DNA of 37,283 nt from Phycisphaerae bacterium. GTDB lineage: Bacteria > Planctomycetota > Phycisphaerae > Phycisphaerales > SM1A02. The translations under genes and the position numbers were made by a program. Under the pieces are notes generated by a model that ran no database searches, was not told the origin of the DNA, and worked only from the letters and a program-made list of their open reading frames with translations. The stretch covers positions 1 through 37,283 of the forward strand of contig VGXO01000030.1 of assembly GCA_016873275.1 (NCBI GenBank). The letters are read 5' to 3'. Below are positions 3,052 through 37,283 of this stretch, piece by piece (within the stretch, counting starts at the first letter, position 1; every line of letters begins with the position of its first letter).

Positions 3052-3360
3052 CGCCATCGCGAGGCAAGGTCGGCCCGCGTGCGGGAACTGAAAAACTCCG
3101 GTCCTTGGTCACGCGTCGCGCTCCGCAACCGGACCGCCGGACCGAGCGGATGGGGGCGTCCGAAGTCGATGGAGACGCTTGCGTTGCCTGAGGGTTGCTC
3201 TTAGTCTCCGCCCCCGGTCTTCGCCGTCGGACGCGTCGGTCGATCGGTGCCCCGTCGGTCTGGAAGATGGTGCTCGCGGGCGATCCGATCCGCGGCGAGG
3301 GATCCGCACGACGCCTCGAGAACCACACTCATGTCCACCCAGCAAGTCAGGGAGTCGAGC
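3052..3360. other. Intergenic region between carA and the secretin gene
   Basis: No convincing gene is visible in these 309 bases. Directly after the carA stop there is a short hairpin, CCCGC-GT-GCGGG at 3074-3085, followed by an A-rich stretch; it is a weak terminator candidate at best. A promoter-like pair lies at 3179-3207 and is listed separately. The secretin frame is open upstream to 3247, but the composition there does not look like secreted protein. ATG 3361 has the only good ribosome-binding site (AGGGAG at 3349-3354, six bases upstream). Confidence 0.6.
3179..3207 (+). promoter_or_regulatory. Candidate sigma-70-type promoter of the secretin operon
   Basis: TTGCGT (3179-3184) and TAGTCT (3202-3207) are separated by 17 bases. 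The predicted start of transcription near 3214 would give a leader of roughly 150 bases before ATG 3361. The -10 hexamer matches a TANNCT pattern seen upstream of other genes in the window. This is sequence resemblance only. Confidence 0.35.
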
Positions 3361-6300
3361 ATGCATCGGGAGTCGTCCCGCGTCGTCCTTCGGCGGAGTG
3401 GTCCTAGGACCTTGACGTCCTTGACCTACGCGGCGCTGCTCGCGACCGCCACGTCTGGCGCGACGTCTGCCGCGGCGCTCGCCGCGATGCAGGCGCCTCC
3501 GACGCTGCCACCTGACCTTCCGAGTGCGCCGCCCAACGGCGGCGGTCAGCCTCCGGCGCCCTCCGAGCCCACGCCTCCCGCCGACGAGCCGGTCGCTCCG
3601 GCGCCCTCCGAGCCGGCGCCGGCGGCTCCTGCCCCATCCGAACCAGCGCCGGCAACTCCGGCGCCGTCGGAGCCTGCGCCGCCTCCCGCGCCAAGCGAGC
3701 CAGCGCCGCCCGCGCCGAGCGAGCCGGCGCCTGCTGCACCGGTCGCGGCCGACGAGCCTGTCGAGGCGCCTTCGGCGCCGGCGACCGACACCTCCGCGGT
3801 TGATGCCGCCCGAAGCGACGCCCGTGCGGCGATGAAGGCAGGTCGATACGACGCGGCGATCGCCTCGTGGACGGCGGTCCTGCGCGAGGTTCCCGACGAT
3901 CAGGAGGCGCAGCAGGGGCTCCGCCGAGCGTCCGCGATGATCGATCAGGGAGACGTCGCCGACCAAGTGCAGCAGGACCGGGCAGTCGTCCGGCAGCGTG
4001 CGCAGGCGGAGTACCTCGACGCGGTGAAGCGGGCGAACGAGTCGCTCGCGAAGAACAACTTCCGCGATGCCGAGACGACGGTGGTGAAGGCGCAGGTCGA
4101 CCTCCGCCGGGTCCAGCAGTCGATCCCCACCTCCGAGTGGGAGCAGATGATGGACCAGCTGAACGCCCTCTCGACGACCATCGACCAGTCGCGGAATGCG
4201 GCGCTTCGCGCGCAAGCCGACCAGGAGCGCCTCGAGGCGGAGGGTGCCAAGCTCCGCACGCAGCAGCAGGAGCAGGAGGCTCGCCAGAAGATGGTGACGC
4301 AGAACCTGATCCGCGTCCGCCAGCTGCAGCTCGAGATGAAGTACCAGGAGGCGCTCGAGGTCCTCAACGCGACGCTCTTCCTCGACCCGTACAACCCGGC
4401 GGCGCTCGCCCTCCGCGACGTCATCCAGTCGGCGATGAGCTACCAGGAGTACTCGCAGATCCTGCGGCGCCGCTCCTTCGCGATCGACCAGATGTCCGTG
4501 GAGGCGCAGGAGGCGCTGGTGCCGCCCTCCCGCAACATCGACGGTCCGGGTCCGAAGTCGGTCAGCGGCGTCATGGTCTATCCGGAGGACTGGCCGGAGC
4601 TCAGCGTCCGCCGCGACGGCGCCGCAGGCTGGAACGAGCCGATCGTGAACCGCGAGACGATCGCGACGCTCGAGAAGTCGATCTCGGTGAGCTTCAACAA
4701 CAACGAGCTCGAGGAGGTCGTGCGGTTCCTCGGTCAGGTCACGGGCTCGCAGTTCTATCCCGACTGGAAGGCGCTCGAGGCAATCGGCATCCGCAACACC
4801 TCCGAGGTGACCCTCGACATGAATGGTCCGGCGGTGAACGTGCTTCGCCGGGTCCTCGAGCAGGTCGGCGATGACTTCGAGCGGCCGCAGTTCTCGGTGG
4901 AGGAGGGGGTCGTGGTGATCTCCTCCGACGCAGCGCTTCGCAAGAAGGTCGTCACGGTCGTCTACGACATCCGTGACCTCCTCTTCGAGGTGCCCTACTT
5001 CGACAACGCACCCGACTTCAACCTGAACTCCTCCATCCAGCAGGGCAATCAAGGTGGTGGCGGTGGTGGTGGCGGCGGCGGTGGCGGTGGCGGCGGCGGC
5101 TTCGGTGGCGGCGGTGGCGGCGGCGGCTTCGGCGGCGGCGGCGGTGGCTCCGGAGGCGGCGGTGGTGGTGGCGGCGGCGGCATCTTCGGCGACCCGGGCG
5201 AGGAGCCCGAGCGTCGCAGCAAGGAGGAGCTGATCGAGCAGATCACCACGATCATCCAGGAGCAGGTCGATCCCGAGGGCTGGCGCGACCTCGGCGGCGA
5301 CACCGGCATGATCCAGGAGCTGAACGGCAACCTGATCATCACCAACACGCCGAGGAATCACCGCGAGATCGAGGGCCTCCTCAGCCAGCTCCGCACGATC
5401 CGCGCCCTCCAGGTGAACATCGAGACCCGCGTGATCAGCGTGAACATGGAGTGGTTCGAGCAGATCGGCGTCGACCTCGACATCTACTTCAACACCAACG
5501 ACGCGATGTACAACCAGGGTCTCGCGGCCGACCAGAATTTCGCGCTCAGCGACTTCTTCTACTCGGGACAGCCCGCCGACAGCGCGAACCGAAACGGCAC
5601 CCTCAAGAACCCGGTCATCTTCGATGCCATCGGTCAGAACGCGGCATTCGCGAACACCACCGCGACCGGTGCCGCGTTCGGCGTGCCAGGCGCCGACGGC
5701 ACGACGATCGAGTACGTCACTGGTCCGGTCGGGACGCCGGTGGGTCGGCAAAAGCGGGGACAGAACGGCTCGAGCGGCTGGGCGCCGATCGGGATCGTCC
5801 AGGACTCGACCGGCATCGTCGACTCGGTCGCCCGCGGAACCTTCAAGACCGGCGTCGCCGCGGCGTCGCTCGTGAATCCGGCGCTGACCGTCGGCATCAG
5901 CTTCCTCGACGACATCCAGGTCGACCTGATCATCAACGCGACGCAGGCGGACCAGCGGAGCGTGCTGCTCACCGCGCCGCGGCTCACGCTCTTCAACGGT
6001 CAGCGGTCGTGGATCAGCGTCGCGAAGCAGATCTCCTACATCGCGCAGCTCATCCCCGTCACCGGTGACTCGGCGGCGGCGTTCAACCCGGTCCCCGGCG
6101 TCGTCTACGAGGGCTTCGTGCTCGACGTCGAGGCGGTGATCTCCGCGGATCGCCGCTACGTGACGATGACCGTGCAGTTCGGTCAGAACAGCGACGTCCG
6201 CTTCCGCGACTTCCGGATCACGGGTGCCGCGGGCGGCGGCGACTTCGGCGGCGGTCGGGCGTCCCAGTTCGAGGGCACCATCCAGCTCCCGAACTTCACG

Positions 6301-6579
6301 GGCACCGAGATCGCGACGACCGTCTCCGTCCCCGACAAGGGCACGATCCTGCTCGGCGGTCAGCGCTCGGTGAGCGAGATCGAGATCGAGGCGGGCGTCC
6401 CGGTGCTCTCGAAGATCCCGTGGGTCAACCGGTTCTTCACCAACCGGGCGAACGACAAGCAGGAGCTCACCACGCTGCTGCTGATCCGCCCCGAGATCAT
6501 CATCCAGAACGAGGAGGAGGAGATCCTCTTCAAGGGCATCACCGACCGGATCGGTTCGGGCGCGTACGTCGGCTATTGA
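3361..6579 (+). CDS. Secretin (GspD/PilQ superfamily) with TPR-like and Gly-rich regions
   Basis: Outer-membrane secretins form ring channels for type II secretion or type IV pili. This 1072-residue protein has a signal peptide (to about residue 42), a Pro-rich linker with six APSEP copies (about 44-140), and a TPR-like or coiled-coil region (about 144-367). An STN/N0-like domain follows (about 441-544; SVSFNNNELEEVVRFLG), then a nearly pure glycine tract (565-607). A secretin N domain starts near 681 (QVNIETRVISVNMEWFEQIG). The secretin core ends with VPVLSKIPWVNRFF (about 1013) and LLLIRPEII. A loop of about 100 residues separates the last N domain from the core. The start at 3361 is chosen for its AGGGAG site; ATG 3331 is possible. 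No ATPase, pilin or inner-membrane platform gene is nearby, so the system it serves cannot be named. STAS and RsbW-like genes follow within 42 and 61 bases. Confidence 0.9.
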   Translation: MHRESSRVVLRRSGPRTLTSLTYAALLATATSGATSAAALAAMQAPPTLPPDLPSAPPNGGGQPPAPSEPTPPADEPVAPAPSEPAPAAPAPSEPAPATPAPSEPAPPPAPSEPAPPAPSEPAPAAPVAADEPVEAPSAPATDTSAVDAARSDARAAMKAGRYDAAIASWTAVLREVPDDQEAQQGLRRASAMIDQGDVADQVQQDRAVVRQRAQAEYLDAVKRANESLAKNNFRDAETTVVKAQVDLRRVQQSIPTSEWEQMMDQLNALSTTIDQSRNAALRAQADQERLEAEGAKLRTQQQEQEARQKMVTQNLIRVRQLQLEMKYQEALEVLNATLFLDPYNPAALALRDVIQSAMSYQEYSQILRRRSFAIDQMSVEAQEALVPPSRNIDGPGPKSVSGVMVYPEDWPELSVRRDGAAGWNEPIVNRETIATLEKSISVSFNNNELEEVVRFLGQVTGSQFYPDWKALEAIGIRNTSEVTLDMNGPAVNVLRRVLEQVGDDFERPQFSVEEGVVVISSDAALRKKVVTVVYDIRDLLFEVPYFDNAPDFNLNSSIQQGNQGGGGGGGGGGGGGGGGFGGGGGGGGFGGGGGGSGGGGGGGGGGIFGDPGEEPERRSKEELIEQITTIIQEQVDPEGWRDLGGDTGMIQELNGNLIITNTPRNHREIEGLLSQLRTIRALQVNIETRVISVNMEWFEQIGVDLDIYFNTNDAMYNQGLAADQNFALSDFFYSGQPADSANRNGTLKNPVIFDAIGQNAAFANTTATGAAFGVPGADGTTIEYVTGPVGTPVGRQKRGQNGSSGWAPIGIVQDSTGIVDSVARGTFKTGVAAASLVNPALTVGISFLDDIQVDLIINATQADQRSVLLTAPRLTLFNGQRSWISVAKQISYIAQLIPVTGDSAAAFNPVPGVVYEGFVLDVEAVISADRRYVTMTVQFGQNSDVRFRDFRITGAAGGGDFGGGRASQFEGTIQLPNFTGTEIATTVSVPDKGTILLGGQRSVSEIEIEAGVPVLSKIPWVNRFFTNRANDKQELTTLLLIRPEIIIQNEEEEILFKGITDRIGSGAYVGY
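5053..5181 (+). repeat. Glycine-codon (GGN) low-complexity tract inside the secretin gene
   Basis: Forty-three consecutive codons, of which 40 are glycine (GGC, GGT and one GGA), are interrupted only by two Phe (5101, 5128) and one Ser (5149). It joins the STN/N0-like domain to the remaining N domains. The near-repetitive DNA is prone to in-frame slippage, so its length may vary between strains or be an assembly weak point. Confidence 0.95.
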
Positions 6580-29927: not shown

Positions 29928-30084
29928 GCGAGTTCCCCTGCGACCGGAGGAGGGTCGCGGTCTGCAGAGACTATCCGCTCGATGACCCCCTGCGGCGCAG
30001 CTAGTCGGGCGGGGATCCGGCGTGGAACGGCGCGGCGGTGGTAAGGTTGCGGACCTCGCCCACGCACCCTCGGGAGAAGCTCCG

Positions 30085-32628
30085 ATGCGCCCCATCCTTC
30101 CGCCGATCCGGCTCGTCCTCGTCTCGTGCCTGCTGCCTGCCTTGGTCGCGGCGATGCTTGCCTGCGTGCCGAAGCCGCAGCAGTCAGGCGGCGCGAGCTC
30201 CACCGCCTCGCCGAGCGGACCGACGAGCCCCGCGCCGGACGCGGTCGAGGCGACCTGGCCTCGCGTCTTCAGCGTGCAGGACGGCGAGATGACCGTCTAT
30301 CCGCCGACCTTCCAGTCCTGGGACGGTCGGACCCTCACCGGCACCTGCCCGTTCGGGCTCGCCGCGAAGGGCGGCAGCTCGCAGACCTACGGCACGCTCG
30401 CCTTCACCGCATCGACCGAGGTGAACAAGCTCAACCGCATCGTCACGCTCACGGAGATCCAGGTCACCGGCGTGTCCCTTCCCGAGAATCCGGCGCGGCA
30501 GTCGGCGATCCAGGGCGAGCTGCAGTCGTCCGGACAGGGCAAGACGCTCACCGTCTCGCTCGATCGGCTGCAGGCGTCGGTGCCGGGCATGACGCAGGCG
30601 CCGACCGCGCCCTCGGCGCCGCTCCTCAACAACCCGCCCGCGCTCTCGATCGTCACGACCCCCACCGTGCTCGTCCCGATCCAGGGCGATCCCGTCCTGC
30701 AGGCGGTGGCGGGCACCTCGCTGACGCGGGCGATCAACACGCCGATGCTCCTCGTGAAGGACGCCGCGTCGAACTGGTACCTGAAGATCGCGGACGGCTG
30801 GATGACCGCCGCGTCGCTCGCCGGTCCGTGGTCGGTGCTGGCGTCGGCGAGCTCCGACCTCGCGACGGTCGCGGCGTGGGCACAGTCGCAGCCGAGCATC
30901 AACCTGCTCGCGCCGTCGGCGCAGGACGCCGCCGGCAACGCGAGCACCGCGCAGACCGTCTCGCTCTCCTCGGGGGCGCCCGCCATCGTGGTCTCGACCA
31001 CGCCCGCGGAGATCCTGGTGATCGACGGGGCGCCGACGTGGCAGGCGCTCGGGACCTCCGGTCTGCTCTCGCCGACGAACACGAGCGCCAACATCTTCCA
31101 GCTGCAGTCGACCGGCGCGATCTACGTGCTCGTCTCGGGTCGCTGGTTCACCGCGCCCTCGACGAGCGGCCCGTGGACCTACGTGCCGGCGGCGACCCTG
31201 CCGCCCGCGTTCCTGATGATCCCCGCCGACTCGCCGCGCGAGAACGTGCTCGCCTCGATCCCCGGCACCGCGCAGGCGCAGGAGGCGGCGATCGCGAACG
31301 CCGTGCCGCAGATGGCGCAGGTCCCGCGCTCGCAGGTCATGCCGAAGCCGGAGCTCGTGGGCAGCTCGCCGGTGCTCACGCCGATCGCGGGCACGGGCGT
31401 CTCCGTCGTCTCGAACTCGCTCACGCCGGTCTTCGTGATCGGCAAGAACGACTACTACGCGGTGAAGGACGGGATCTGGTTCCACTCGACCTCGCTCGGC
31501 GGGACGTGGAAGGTCGCGACCTTCGTCCCGCCGGCGATCTACTCGATCCCGCCCTCGAGCCCGTACTACTACGCGACCTACGTGAAGATCTACGACGTCA
31601 CGAGCGACCTCGTCCTCGTCGGCTACACGCCCGGCTACTTCGGCGCCTACATGCAGGATGGCGTCGTCGTCTACGGCACCGGCTACGCCTACGTGCCCTA
31701 TTGCTCGACGGTGTGGGTGCCGGCGCCCGCGACCTACGGCTTCGGCGCCGCGATGACCTACAACCCGTGGGCGGGATGGGCGTTCGGATTTGGCACGGGC
31801 ATGGCGGTGGGGTGGGCGATCGGCGCAAGCACCTGGAGCTGCGGGCCGTATCCCTACTGGGGTCCCTACGGCGCCGCGTACGGTCCGCACGGCGCGTACG
31901 CGTGGGGTCCGGGCGGTTGGGCCGCGACGACCGGCAACGTCTATCACCAGTGGGGCGACGTGACCACCATGTCGCGGACGAGCGAGGGCTACAACGCCTG
32001 GACCGGCAACCAGTGGGCGACCCACACCGGCGCCGCGTACAACTCGACGACCGGGGCGCGCGCCGCCGGTCAGCGAGGCTACGTGCAGAACGCCTACACC
32101 GGGAACTGGGCGGAGGGCGCCCGCGGCGCCGGCTACGACCCGACCACCGGCAACTACGCGGCGGCGCGGGGCGGCGTCGAGGGAACCCCGAGCGGCGCCA
32201 CCGCCGCGGCGGGCGAGGCGACGGTCGGCAACACGAAGACCGGTCAGAGCGCGACCGTCGCGGGCGTCAAGACCGACGACGGCACGTGGGGCGTCGCCCA
32301 CGGCAGCGACGGCACCGCGGTCTCGACGGGGAACAACGTCTACGCCACCCACGACGGCAACGTCTACAAGTACGACGGCAGTTCCGACTCGTGGCAGCAG
32401 CACGACGGGGGAGATCAGTGGTCGCAGGTGAACGACCAGAACACCCGCAACTCCCTCGATCAGCAGCAGGCGATGCGGCAGCAGGGCGACGACCGCTCGC
32501 AGAGCGCGAGCCGTTGGCAGCCGGGCGGCAGCGGCTTCGACTCCCGCGGCGGAAGCTCGTGGGGCGGCAACTGGGGCGGGCAGGCGCGAGGCGGCGGCAG
32601 CGGCCTCCGCGGCGGTGGTCGTCGCTGA
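30085..32628 (+). CDS. Large Tyr/Gly-rich surface lipoprotein with three internal modules
   Basis: The 847-residue protein has signal peptide [20 protein letters not shown] and lipobox MLAC. An N-terminal region of about 190 residues is followed by three related modules (about 190-270, 303-380, 423-495). Each has a 'value' strand such as [14 protein letters not shown] or [14 protein letters not shown], then [20 protein letters not shown] or [21 protein letters not shown] Tyr/Pro/Gly-rich segment ([31 protein letters not shown]) follows, then [28 protein letters not shown]-type repeats and a Gly/Arg tail. The plan resembles proteins annotated elsewhere as 'carbohydrate-binding family V/XII'; no binding activity is evident from sequence. 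ATG 30085 has GGGAG eight bases upstream. It converges with another low-complexity lipoprotein. Confidence 0.82.
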
Positions 32629-32729: not shown

Positions 32730-33590
32730 TCAGGGCGAGGCAGGCGCCGAGGGCGGCGGCGGGGGCGCCGTGGGAGCCTGCGGCGGGGCTCCATAGAAGT
32801 GGAAGTGGTAGTTCACGCCGCCCGCGTTCGGTCCGCCGCCATATCCGGCGCCGTTGCCGGCCCGCGCGGGCATGCCGTAGTTGTTGCCGGAGGTGTTCCA
32901 GCCGCCGGCCTGCCCGACGCCCGCGCCGGTGCCGTCGCCCTCGCGGGCAGGCTGACCGTAGTTGTTGCCGGAGGTGTTCCAGCCGCCGGCCTGCCCGACG
33001 CCCGCGCCGGTGCCGTCGCCCTCACGAGCGGGCTGGCCGTAGTTGTTGCCGGAGGTGTTCCAGCCGCCCGCGGCGCCAGCGCCGGCGCCGGTCGCGTTGC
33101 CTTGGCTCGCCGGCAGGCTCATGCCGCCACCGCCGCCGTAGAAGTGGAAGTTGTAGCCGCCGCCCCCGCCACTGCCGCCGGTCGCCATCGGCACCGTCCA
33201 CACCGGCGGCGCGTATCCGCCCGGCGGGCTGCTCGGTCCCGGCGGTCCGGGGACGTTGCTGCCATCGGGCGCGGTCCCAGCAGCCGAGGCAGCCTGGGCG
33301 GGCGAGCCGCTCGCGGCGCCGCCGTAGAAGTGGAAGTGGTAGTTCACTTGGTTGAGCGCCTGACCCTCGCTCGCGTAGGGGTTCTCCTCGCCGCCGACCT
33401 GATTGAAGCCGACGCCCTGTGGCTCCGCCTCCTCGTCGACCGCCTCGGGCTTGCCGGGGATCTCGTAGGACTGGTCCTGCGGGTCCGCGACGGCGCCGGG
33501 GGAGATCACGCCGCTTCTTGACGTGCCGTTCGTGGCGGAGCAGCCGACCGCGGCGAGCGCGGCGGCGGTGATGAGCAGGGTGGAACGCAT
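32730..33590 (-). CDS. Gly/Asn-rich lipoprotein with HFHFYG motifs and 27-residue repeats
   Basis: Not recognised. The 286-residue protein has a lipoprotein signal MRSTLLITAAALAAVGC (Cys17). A short acidic part is followed by a low-complexity body. The motif NYHFHFYGG occurs after about residue 80, a variant YNFHFYGGG follows near 150, and NYHFHFYGAP comes near the C-terminus. Between the last two lie three tandem 27-residue units (GAGVGQAGGWNTSGNNYGQP plus AREGDGT), encoded by an 81-bp DNA repeat. The end is a Pro-rich tail. Alternating His-Phe-His-Phe strands could stack as beta or bind metal; this is inference. ATG 33590 has AGGAG nine bases upstream. Confidence 0.8.
   Translation of the reverse strand: MRSTLLITAAALAAVGCSATNGTSRSGVISPGAVADPQDQSYEIPGKPEAVDEEAEPQGVGFNQVGGEENPYASEGQALNQVNYHFHFYGGAASGSPAQAASAAGTAPDGSNVPGPPGPSSPPGGYAPPVWTVPMATGGSGGGGGYNFHFYGGGGGMSLPASQGNATGAGAGAAGGWNTSGNNYGQPAREGDGTGAGVGQAGGWNTSGNNYGQPAREGDGTGAGVGQAGGWNTSGNNYGMPARAGNGAGYGGGPNAGGVNYHFHFYGAPPQAPTAPPPPPSAPASP
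32878..33120 (-). repeat. 81-bp tandem repeat within the HFHFYG lipoprotein gene
   Basis: Three in-frame units of 81 bases start at 32878, 32959 and 33040, recognised by TAGTTGTTGCCGGAGG at the start of each. The first two are nearly identical; the third diverges after about 35 bases. Each encodes 27 residues (WNTSGNNYG core). Exact 81-base spacing indicates recent duplication. Confidence 0.93.
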
Positions 33591-33792
33591 GCGCGAGGTC
33601 TCCTGTGGGGGGATCGATCGAGGGTCGAGGGCGAAGGTCAGGGCAACGATCCAACGACCGATCCGGCAGCCCGGGTTCATCGGTCCCTCGCCGTCGGTCA
33701 TCGCAGGCGGCGCCGCGTCGCGCCGCTTCCCGGACCTACGCCTCTCCGCGGCGCCGGGTGCGCGTCTTCTCGGACCATCTCCGAAGTTCCAC

Positions 33793-33798
33793 TAGACT
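33793..33798 (+). promoter_or_regulatory. Candidate -10 element of transketolase
   Basis: TAGACT ends 27 bases before ATG 33826, a fitting distance for a short leader. No good -35 hexamer is seen at the usual spacing. It matches the TANNCT pattern found at other starts in this window. Confidence 0.25.
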
Positions 33799-33825
33799 TC
33801 GACGCTCGCCTTGGGAGCCGAACTC

Positions 33826-35979
33826 ATGCCCGACGCCGCGATCCGAATGCCCCGCCCGAACGCCGGTCTCCCGAGTGACGCGTCCGAGCTCGACTCGCTC
33901 GCGGTCAACACCATCCGCACGCTCTCGATGGACGCGGTGCAGGCGGCGAAGAGCGGACATCCCGGCACGCCGATGGCGCTTGCGCCGGTGGCGTACGCGC
34001 TCTGGCAGCAGGTCCTCTCCTACGACCCGATGGCGCCTCGGTGGCTGAACCGCGACCGGTTCGTCCTGTCGAACGGACACGCGTCGATGCTCCTCTACTC
34101 GCTGCTCCACCTCGCGGGGGTGCGGCAGCTTGATGCCGCGGGTCGTCCGACCGGCGAGCCGGCGGTGCGGCTCGAGGACATCAAGCGCTTCCGGCAGATG
34201 GACAGCCGCTGCCCCGGACATCCCGAGCACGGCTGGACGAGCGGCATCGAGACCACCACCGGGCCGCTTGGTCAGGGCGTCGCGACCTCGGTCGGCATGG
34301 CGATCGCCTCGCGGTGGCTCGCCGCGAGGTTCAACCGTCCGGGCTTCGAGCTCTTCTCGTGGCGGACCTGGGCGATCTGCGGCGACGGCTGCCTGATGGA
34401 GGGCATCTCCTCCGAGGCGGCGTCGCTCGCGGGGCACCTGCAGCTCTCGAACCTCTGCTGGATCTACGACAACAACCGCATCACCATCGAGGGGCACACG
34501 GCGCTCGCCTTCACCGAGGACGTCGCCACCCGCTTCATCGCCTACGGCTGGAACGTGATGCGGGTCGGCGACGCGAACGACCTCGACCGCCTCGGCGACG
34601 CGCTCCGCGGGGCGATCGCGGAGACCCGCCGCCCCACGCTCGTCATCGTGGACAGTCACATCGGCTGGGGCGCCCCGCATCGTCAGGACACCAGCGCCGC
34701 CCACGGCGAGCCGCTCGGCGACGACGAGATCCGCCTCGCGAAGCAGTTTTATGGATGGCCGGAGGACGCCACGTTCCTCGTTCCCCCGGAGGTGCCGAAG
34801 CACTTCGCCGCGGGGATCGGCGCCCGCGGCGCCGCCGCCCGCGCCGCGTGGGAGGCGATGTTCGCGAGCTATCGCGCCGCGTTCCCCGACCTCGCGAAGG
34901 AGATCGACTGCATCGCCGCGGGCACGCTGCCCGCGGGATGGGAGAAGTCGCTGCCGCAGTTCCCCGCCGACGCGAAGGGCATGGCGACCCGCGCCTCCGG
35001 CGGCAAGGTCATCAACGCGGTCGCGAAGGCGATTCCCTGGCTCGTCGGCGGCGCGGCGGACCTCTCGCCCTCGACGAAGACCCGCCTCGAGTTCGAGGGC
35101 GCGGGCGACCAGCAGGGCCCCGCGTGGATCGACGCGATCCCCGAGGGCGTCGCGCCCGCGAGCACGACCTGCTCGCCGGGCGGGCGCAACCTGCACTTCG
35201 GGATCCGCGAGCACGCCATGGCGGCGATCTGCAACGGGCTCGCCCTCTCGGGGCTCCGCCCGTTCGGCGCCGGATTCCTGATCTTCTCCGACTACGCCCG
35301 CGGCTCGATCCGCCTGAGCGCGCTGATGGAGCTGCCGGTCGTCCACGTCTTCACGCACGACTCGATCGGCCTCGGCGAGGACGGGCCCACGCACCAGCCG
35401 GTCGAGCAGGTCGTCGCGCTGCGGGCGGTGCCGGGACTCCTCGTCTTTCGCCCCGCCGACGCGAACGAGGTCTCGGCGTGCTGGCAGACCGCGGTCGCCC
35501 TCGGGCAGCCCTCGGTGATGGTGCTCTCGCGCCAGGACCTGCCGACCGTGGATCGATCGAAGTTCTCGCCGGCGAGCGGCTGCGCGAGGGGCGGCTACGT
35601 GCTGGCGGAGGCGACCGGAGGCGCGCCGAAGGCGATCCTCATCGCGACGGGCAGCGAGGTGAGCCTCTGCATGACCGCGCGGGAGGCGCTCGAGAAGGGC
35701 GGCGTGCCGACGCGGGTGGTCAGCATGCCCTGCACCGCGCTCTTCGACCGGCAGGACGCCGCGTATCGCGAGTCGGTGCTGCCGCGCTCGGTGAAGGCGA
35801 GGGTCAGCGTGGAGGAGGCGTCCACGCTGGGCTGGCACCGCTACGTCGGCGACGGCGGCGCGGTGATCGGCATGCACACCTTCGGCGCGTCGGCGCCGAT
35901 CAAGGAGCTGATGAAGAAGTTCGGGTTCGAGCCGCAGGCGATCGTCGACGTGACCAAGCGCCTGCTGCAGGGCGGGTGA
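33826..35979 (+). CDS. tkt: Transketolase
   Basis: Transketolase moves two-carbon ketol units between sugar phosphates in the non-oxidative pentose phosphate pathway, with thiamine diphosphate and Mg2+. The 717-residue protein begins after a short leader with [20 protein letters not shown] and [15 protein letters not shown]. It has [20 protein letters not shown], the ThDP/metal motif [13 protein letters not shown] with [10 protein letters not shown], the pyrimidine domain [14 protein letters not shown], and [19 protein letters not shown] with FRPADANEV. The C-terminal domain includes [14 protein letters not shown]. Length is slightly above the usual 660. ATG 33826 has GGGAG eight bases upstream; an in-frame TTG at 33811 is less likely. 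rpiB follows after 34 bases, forming a pentose phosphate pair. Confidence 0.97.
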
Positions 35980-36013: not shown

Positions 36014-36487
36014 ATGAAGGTGGTGATGGCGTCCGATCACGCGGGGTTCGACCTGAAGAAGACCCTCGTCGAGAAGGTGAGGGCGGCGGGGCACGAGGTG
36101 ATCGACGTCGGCACGAACTCGACGGATCCCGTCGACTACCCCGACTACGCCGCGCGGCTCGCCGCGGAGATCCTCGCCGGTCGCTGCGAGCGGGGAATCC
36201 TCCTCTGCGGCAGCGGGATCGGCGCGAGCGTCGCCGCGAACAAGATTCCCGGCATCCGTGCGGGGAACTGCGAGGACCACTACTCCTCGCATCAGGGCGT
36301 CGAGCACGACGACATGAACGTCCTCGTCCTCGGCGGACGCATCATCGGACCGATGCCCGCGGAGGAGATGTGCCTCGCCTTCCTTGCGGCGCGGTTCACC
36401 GGCGAGCCGCGGCACCTGCGGCGGCTCGAGAAGGTGCGGGCGATCGAGAAGGATCCGCTCGCGGTCGTGCGGACCGCGCGGTCCTGA
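36014..36487 (+). CDS. rpiB: Ribose-5-phosphate isomerase B
   Basis: RpiB interconverts ribose 5-phosphate and ribulose 5-phosphate. The 157-residue protein starts MKVVMASDHAGFDLKKTLVE (substrate-binding DHAG). It has GTNSTDPVDYPDYA and the catalytic Cys in ILLCGSGIGASVAANK. The loop HDDMNVLVLGGRIIG corresponds to the family's (N/D)xxNVLxLGxR segment. NCEDHYSSHQGVEHDD replaces the commoner CHDxYSAxMSxEHND. GAGGAG lies seven bases before ATG 36014. Together with tkt it supplies substrates for transketolase. The stop lies within a small CTGAC-CCCC-GTCAG palindrome (36484-36497) that also contains the stop of the convergent gene. Confidence 0.96.
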   Translation: MKVVMASDHAGFDLKKTLVEKVRAAGHEVIDVGTNSTDPVDYPDYAARLAAEILAGRCERGILLCGSGIGASVAANKIPGIRAGNCEDHYSSHQGVEHDDMNVLVLGGRIIGPMPAEEMCLAFLAARFTGEPRHLRRLEKVRAIEKDPLAVVRTARS

Positions 36488-36493
36488 CCCCCG

Positions 36494-37283
36494 TCAGTTC
36501 TCCGTCGAGAGGAGCTCGACGTCGAAGACGAGCGTGGCGTTCGGGGGAATCACCGGCGGGCGACCGCGCGGACCGTAGGCGATCGCCGCGGGGACGATCA
36601 GCTTCCGCTTGCCGCCGACCTGCATCGACCCGACGCCCTCGGTCCAGCCCTTGATCACCTGACCGAGGCCGAACGACGCGGGCTCGCCGCGGTCGACGCT
36701 CGAGTCGAACTTGGTGCCGTCGAGGAGGTAGCCGGTGTAGTGGACGGTGACGCGGCTCTGCGGACCGCTCGGCGTCGCGCCGGTGCCCTCGGTGATGTCG
36801 AACCACATCAGACCACTCTCGCTCTCGTGGATCTCGCCGCTGACCATGGTGCCGGGAAAGCGACCACGGGTGGTCTCGGAGGTCACCTCGCCGGTCACCG
36901 CGTTGATGACGAGGTCGTGGACGAGCTGGTCCTTGTAGACCGTCGCCGCGATCGTCGGTGGCTCTGCGGAGGGGTCGAAGGCGATCCGCTCGACCACGCC
37001 GGGGACCTTCGCGAGGGCGACCTTCGTGCCGTCGGCGAGGGTGAGCCGGGCGCCGCTGCACTCGCCCGTCGCGGCGTTCACCGAGACGCGCCGCATGAGC
37101 CCGCCTGAGGAGACGAGCACCTCGTAGGTCACCGCTCCATCACCGATCCGCGCGGCGGCATCGACCGCGGCGCCCGCGGCGAACTTCTCGGCGGCGCGGA
37201 TCGCGTCCGCCATCGTGAGCTTCGCGGCGGTGAGCTCCTGCTCGACGACCGCCGGCTCGGGCGGAAGCACGGAGTAGTCCTGT
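36494..37283 (-). CDS. PepSY-like plus FKBP-type peptidyl-prolyl isomerase, N-terminus beyond window
   Basis: The frame stays open to the right edge ([20 protein letters not shown]), so the real start, probably with a signal peptide, lies outside. Two PepSY-like repeats follow ([11 protein letters not shown] to [34 protein letters not shown]; about 36880-37240). A C-terminal FKBP domain comes next (about 36494-36790): [55 protein letters not shown] and [12 protein letters not shown]. These are the core residues of active FKBPs. PepSY domains are often linked to protease inhibition or metal/stress responses. An envelope folding role is therefore inferred. It converges with rpiB with only six bases between stops. 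Confidence 0.88.

Follow-up and report, generated by a model that had tools for sequence, protein, structure and literature searches.

A lineage-restricted family of probably exported proteins with a His-x-His segment beside sugar-phosphate genes in Phycisphaerae

A frame at positions 32730-33590 of the window, which is the whole analyzed stretch of 37,283 nucleotides, encodes a Gly/Pro-rich protein in which a short alternation of aromatic and histidine residues recurs at three separate sites. This raises the question whether these segments are retained for a function, and which function this would be, or whether they simply follow from the composition of the protein.

The protein of the window and its congeners

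The gene (32730-33590 including the stop codon, minus strand) was delineated by its reading frame and its relatives. It starts with the ATG at 33590, the coding part extends from 33590 to 32733 and the stop codon occupies 32730-32732, so that a His-aromatic protein of 286 residues is predicted, which is probably exported. The N-terminus, MRSTLLITAAALAAVGC, resembles a signal peptide and includes a lipobox-like AVGC (33540-33551, minus strand; Cys17), and the same expression marks all three members of the genus. This agrees with the lipoprotein nature assigned in the preliminary description.

The latter had also listed three NYHFHFYG-type motifs. All three sites are present, but the middle one deviates. 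Site 1 (33321-33341, minus strand) reads YHFHFYG and contains His85 and His87, the His-x-His segment found throughout the family, and site 3 (32790-32810, minus strand), placed by sequence and by alignment to the congeners, has the same letters. Site 2 (33135-33155, minus strand) reads YNFHFYG with Asn instead of His as second residue; in both congeners YHFHFYH is present at this position, and in genus g56 WHLY is aligned to it. Between sites 2 and 3 lies an 81-bp tandem array (32845-33068, minus strand), for which the repeat search returned a period of 81, 2.8 copies and 90% matches. By reading, it encodes three 27-residue units as originally described, two of them with identical protein sequence. 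The mature protein comprises 270 residues with 5 His, 7 Phe and 13 Tyr. The pattern [YF][HN]FHFY occurs three times in it and in none of 200,000 shuffles of these 270 residues, and a query built from the three sites gave no additional match elsewhere in the same genome at E up to 10.

The gene is present in two further genomes of the genus, with 61 and 56% identity, and both congeners retain all three sites: YHFHFYG, YHFHFYH and YHFHFYG in G002, and YHFHFHG, YHFHFYH and YHFHFYH in G001. Thus, over the three genus members FHF is found at 9/9 sites and His-x-His at 8/9. The number of array units, for which a comparison between relatives had been proposed, does differ, being three in the window protein versus two in each congener, as read from the alignment. 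For the whole gene, dN/dS is approximately 0.36 and 0.39 in the pairs of window and congener, and 0.23 when the two congeners are compared. Restricted to 55-56 codons including site 1, it ranges from 0.09 to 0.22, where synonymous sites are close to saturated. The gene is under purifying selection within the genus.

On the other side of the gene, a Tyr/Gly-rich lipoprotein is encoded at 30022-32628. The convergence of the two lipoprotein genes noted before is true in the window, but it is not found in the congeners. Compared to the window, the Tyr/Gly-rich gene is inverted in G002 (L007, 6896-9361), and in G001 it is missing between the His-aromatic gene and purE. As a conserved partner it was rejected, being co-directional in G002, missing at this place in G001 and present in 1/14 regions of other genera. 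A relative with 32% identity is located approximately 5 kb from the His-aromatic gene in G017 (L122, 1206-3158). Inverted repeats, considered as a possible cause of the flipped gene, amount to 28 pairs, which are imperfect and GC-rich. Elsewhere in the window, ORF 3247-6579 encodes a large protein that appears secretin-like by reading; in this ORF, GGC is repeated 41 times with period 3 at 5059-5181, coding for a Gly-rich stretch.

Extent and sequence features of the family

With the single protein as query, matches were confined to the genus (3/61 genomes), and an exact DNA pattern was found in 2/301 genomes, its backward control matching in 1 other genome. The reading as an orphan was overturned by a three-row profile (A1), which matched in 42/181 genomes of the family at E up to 1 and in 21/181 at E up to 1e-5. 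A 25-row profile matched in 50/400 genomes of the order, all within one family and distributed over 12/163 genera, as well as in 4/392 genomes of the phylum, all four again in that same family. Since few candidates were scored per genome (at most seven among the matches listed), the absence of a match is no proof of absence.

Matches of profile A1 beside the transketolase gene tkt were retained at any E-value, and G178 (L041) was retained for its genus likeness and its place. G032 (L038), having two internal stops and no tkt, was dropped as a member. The alignment behind the 25-row profile contains 25/30 references, from which the near-copies L026, L039 and L043, the second copy of L041 and L033, which contains a masked residue, were omitted. 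The final set comprises 56 proteins from 55 genomes: 49 from 48 profile-matched genomes, one from G339 and six found by reading upstream of tkt (L097, L099, L100, L103, L104 and L108). The latter six are circular for any statement on synteny, since they were located through tkt. Thus, 48/50 matched genomes entered the set; outside it are G197 and G184, with three matches placed beside tkt. In genus g55, two genomes (G178:C100, which is L041, and G184:C8) harbor a tandem pair of the family gene next to tkt, of which the G178 pair was read.

The proteins share a core of roughly G-V-G-F-N-Q-x-G-G-E, A-L-E-x-x-A, V-H-Y-H-Y-Y-G and G-Y-A-P, in this order. Within it His85 is kept in 53/56 members (Arg in three, all of g56) and His87 in 52/56 (Asn in four, all of g26), and the putative strand is flanked by Gly67 (54/56), Gly125 (54/56) and Tyr126 (56/56). 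The window protein carries these marks, namely the His-x-His at site 1, G-x-G-(F/Y)-N before and G-Y after the strand. The preliminary description had named a lack of conserved HFHFYG segments in homologues as a refuting observation. In distant relatives the exact letters are indeed lost, but the alternation of His and aromatic residues at site 1 is kept. Beyond residue 25, 49/56 members contain one or more His-x-His; by a second definition, the pattern is found in 48 and absent in eight. The motifs are conserved, as already proposed, and they are not a by-product of composition, as the shuffles, the congeners and the near-constant His85 and His87 all indicate.

Most relatives contain one aromatic-His segment according to a regular expression. 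Two are present in 8/9 members of g56, and three occur outside the genus in 4/53 members (L045, L085, L103 and L104). The combination of three His-aromatic sites with the 27-residue array is, judged from the alignment, the form found in the genus of the window. The C-terminal residue is D or E in 52/56 members, often within G-F-(N/T)-D, which is common and was not taken as defining. The exceptions are one frame truncated at a contig end (A) and the three genus members, the window protein included, which all end in P and carry the array and site 3 instead of the acidic end. The alignment places the array over a G-S-G-A-F-V-G-N-W-D-P-Y stretch of the relatives, a hint that it may have grown from there.

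A lipobox-like match was obtained in 22/56 members using a rough expression over 40 residues, which misses L108 and probably miscounts L080; lipid anchoring is hence no feature of the family. In other members, for example in g56, inspection by eye shows an ordinary signal peptide ending in A-x-A.

The statement that no described family has such a plan is borne out for the window protein by Pfam (no match at E up to 10), NCBIfam (0 families at E up to 1, including NF033704) and PHROGs (no match), and none of the known repeat families was matched. A plasmid search gave no match, and among PDB sequences three chains appeared at E 0.21 to 0.96, which is not significant. For 25 members, Pfam returned 0/25 at E up to 1 and PHROGs one weak match to a spanin family (E 0.08). 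In NCBIfam, the Hpn-like nickel-binding model NF033704 weakly matched 4/25 members (best E 0.0019), and four other weak matches of single members at E 0.017 to 0.99 were taken as chance. In a limited literature search, covering the sources in part, no account of such a family was found. The window protein is an elaborate member of a larger, lineage-restricted and apparently undescribed family of exported proteins.

Genomic place of the family

In the window, the gene is separated from its divergent neighbor by 33591-33825, which is 235 bp if tkt starts at the ATG 33826. This neighbor, the transketolase gene tkt (33826-35979, plus strand; Pfam PF00456, PF02779 and PF22613), is followed by rpiB, encoding ribose-5-phosphate isomerase B (36014-36487, plus strand; PF02502), and by a gene for a PepSY and FKBP-type peptidyl-prolyl isomerase (36494-37270, minus strand; PF00254 and PF03413), which may actually start outside the window.

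Including the window, 46/56 members are divergent from tkt with a median gap of 129 bp (tkt start extrapolated). Another 8/56 are divergent from rpiB, seven of them in g26, where rpiB is the divergent neighbor, with gaps of 39-42 bp, and one in g7 with 357 bp. The remaining 2/56 are tandem copies beside tkt on a stretch cut within the tkt start. Without the six members found via tkt, 40 tkt-divergent, eight rpiB-divergent and two tandem genes are left (n=50). The FKBP gene lies beyond rpiB in 14/14 regions from 11 other genera, whereas purE, purK, mscL and xerD are present in 0/14 (each at E up to 1e-15, some regions being cut by contig ends). The FKBP gene is convergent to rpiB in the window and variable in orientation among genera. 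The constant neighbors are tkt, rpiB and the FKBP-type isomerase gene.

Such a tkt gene, at E up to 1e-40, is present in 98/181 genomes and 22/45 genera of the family, including all 12 gene-bearing genera; in the other 10 genera with this tkt the His-aromatic gene was not found. The presence of the His-aromatic gene is patchy, even within g53, since it was not seen in 14/20 additional tkt upstream regions, a count based on the two best frames per region with some regions being short, in which a diverged gene could be missed. For L115 and L116 (G289 and G287), a more distant tkt of approximately 50% identity was observed, and the frame located divergently upstream of it resembles a sugar kinase by reading rather than a member of this family.

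High G+C content leads to long open frames on both strands, and a spurious or functionless frame had to be considered for this reason. Conservation at the protein level in 12 genera, dN/dS below 0.4 within the genus and the constant adjacency to tkt or rpiB contradict this explanation, which is rejected as extremely improbable.

A family of exported proteins without a Pfam match (25 members) thus adjoins a housekeeping pair of sugar-phosphate genes in 12 genera, while the genes on the other side change. For a surface protein of low complexity such a fixed position would not be expected, and it offers a clear handle for studies of co-regulation and function. The region shared with tkt suggests that expression may be co-regulated with sugar-phosphate metabolism. 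A simple promoter and terminator scan of the intergenic DNA was empty, with almost no hits to be expected in such GC-rich DNA.

The linked isomerase could itself be the clue, if the His-aromatic protein were its partner or client. It would then be an envelope protein, rich in Pro within its linkers and folded with the help of the isomerase, for which the strand would serve as docking site. The position of the FKBP gene beyond rpiB in all 14 regions of 11 genera and a signal peptide seen by eye in about 10/16 FKBP frames would fit to this. However, linkage to rpiB alone may account for the position of the FKBP gene, whose orientation varies, and such a partnership is considered very unlikely.

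Possible function and comparison with known systems

The reading tentatively preferred here, with somewhat less than even confidence, is an exported and probably disordered linker protein, whose His-aromatic strands act as assembly sites, probably assisted by metal. Each His-aromatic segment would form a short beta-strand. By geometry, the alternation in an extended chain would turn both histidines to one face and the aromatic side chains to the opposite one. Strands from several molecules might then stack or pair, and a metal ion or a changed protonation of the His residues would bridge the His face. Flexible spacing would be provided by the stretches rich in Gly, Pro and Ser together with the 27-residue array, and a lipid-anchored protein of this kind could build up a layer or network on the cell surface that responds to metal.

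In the parts of the sources consulted, disordered repeats rich in His and Tyr are described to phase-separate (PMC6884462), and gp37 of phage T4 to bind iron by His-x-His pairs (PMC11705849). Together with the strand geometry, these precedents led to the judgment that metal-helped assembly sites are most likely. This reading is supported by the retention of His85 (53/56) and His87 (52/56) across 12 genera in otherwise very divergent proteins, by the sites kept within the genus and by the steady adjacency to tkt or rpiB. Counted against it are the His pair not being universal, the single aromatic-His segment of most relatives, the lipobox in 22/56 members, the patchy presence, the empty promoter scan and an AlphaFold model from a two-sequence alignment, in which the mean pLDDT is 32 and none of the three sites forms a strand.

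Aromatic stickers and spacers might also act without metal, through Tyr/Phe stacking and His-Tyr hydrogen bonds, resulting in a pH-dependent condensation or a surface gel like that of squid beak proteins. The Gly/Pro/Ser-rich linkers, 13 Tyr and 7 Phe per 270 residues and the variable array, with three units versus two and two by reading, are in line with this idea. On the contrary, a near-invariant His-x-His register at one site in 12 genera would not be needed by stickers alone, and the window protein lacks GHGxY-type modules, which are a feature of squid beak proteins. The mechanism as such is described for beak proteins in the part of the account consulted (PMC6884462), and this alternative is regarded as possible but unlikely.

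Less likely still is an exported metal buffer or chaperone, in which the His strand captures metal in the envelope without self-assembly. His runs such as HYHYHTHHHYH in g33 and g154 and the four of 25 members matching the Hpn-like model (best E 0.0019) would be explained by this, although the match may reflect composition. Moreover, only 5 His are left in the window protein once the signal peptide is removed, NCBIfam yields no match for it at E up to 1, and no metal transporter is seen among the named genes of the window, few of which were family-searched.

Extending the preferred assembly reading, the family could represent bacterial surface proteins whose His-x-His aromatic strands build a network switchable by metal or pH. 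Their expression would be coupled to the pentose-phosphate genes by the shared upstream region, and the genus of the window would tune the material by multiplied strands and spacer units. As a whole, this picture is improbable and is put forward as speculation.

Among known systems, the His-rich beak proteins of squid resemble the window protein in being disordered and in an assembly driven by His and Tyr of modular repeats, as far as the consulted part of the source describes them (PMC6884462). They are animal proteins and are likened here by mechanism, not by sequence, whereas the window protein is bacterial, presumably exported and contains few His, placed in His-x-His segments. Tail fibers of the phage T4 gp37 type share His-x-His motifs repeated along the chain, again according to the part of the account consulted (PMC11705849). 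In contrast, the window protein has no PHROGs match, the one weak match of a member (E 0.08) being to a spanin. The Hpn-like nickel-binding protein (NF033704) is similar in the His-rich runs of some relatives, with 4/25 members matching weakly. The window protein itself is unmatched, and the His of the family are found for the most part in a single strand, within exported proteins rich in Gly and Pro. Lineage-restricted exported repeat lipoproteins, a kind rather than a family, have in common the lipobox signal peptide, Gly/Pro-rich spacers and a variable tandem array; here, the near-invariant His-x-His segment and the constant linkage to tkt or rpiB are different. If the strands do assemble with metal, this family would be a bacterial counterpart of both the His/Tyr materials of the squid beak and the His-x-His iron sites of phage fibers.
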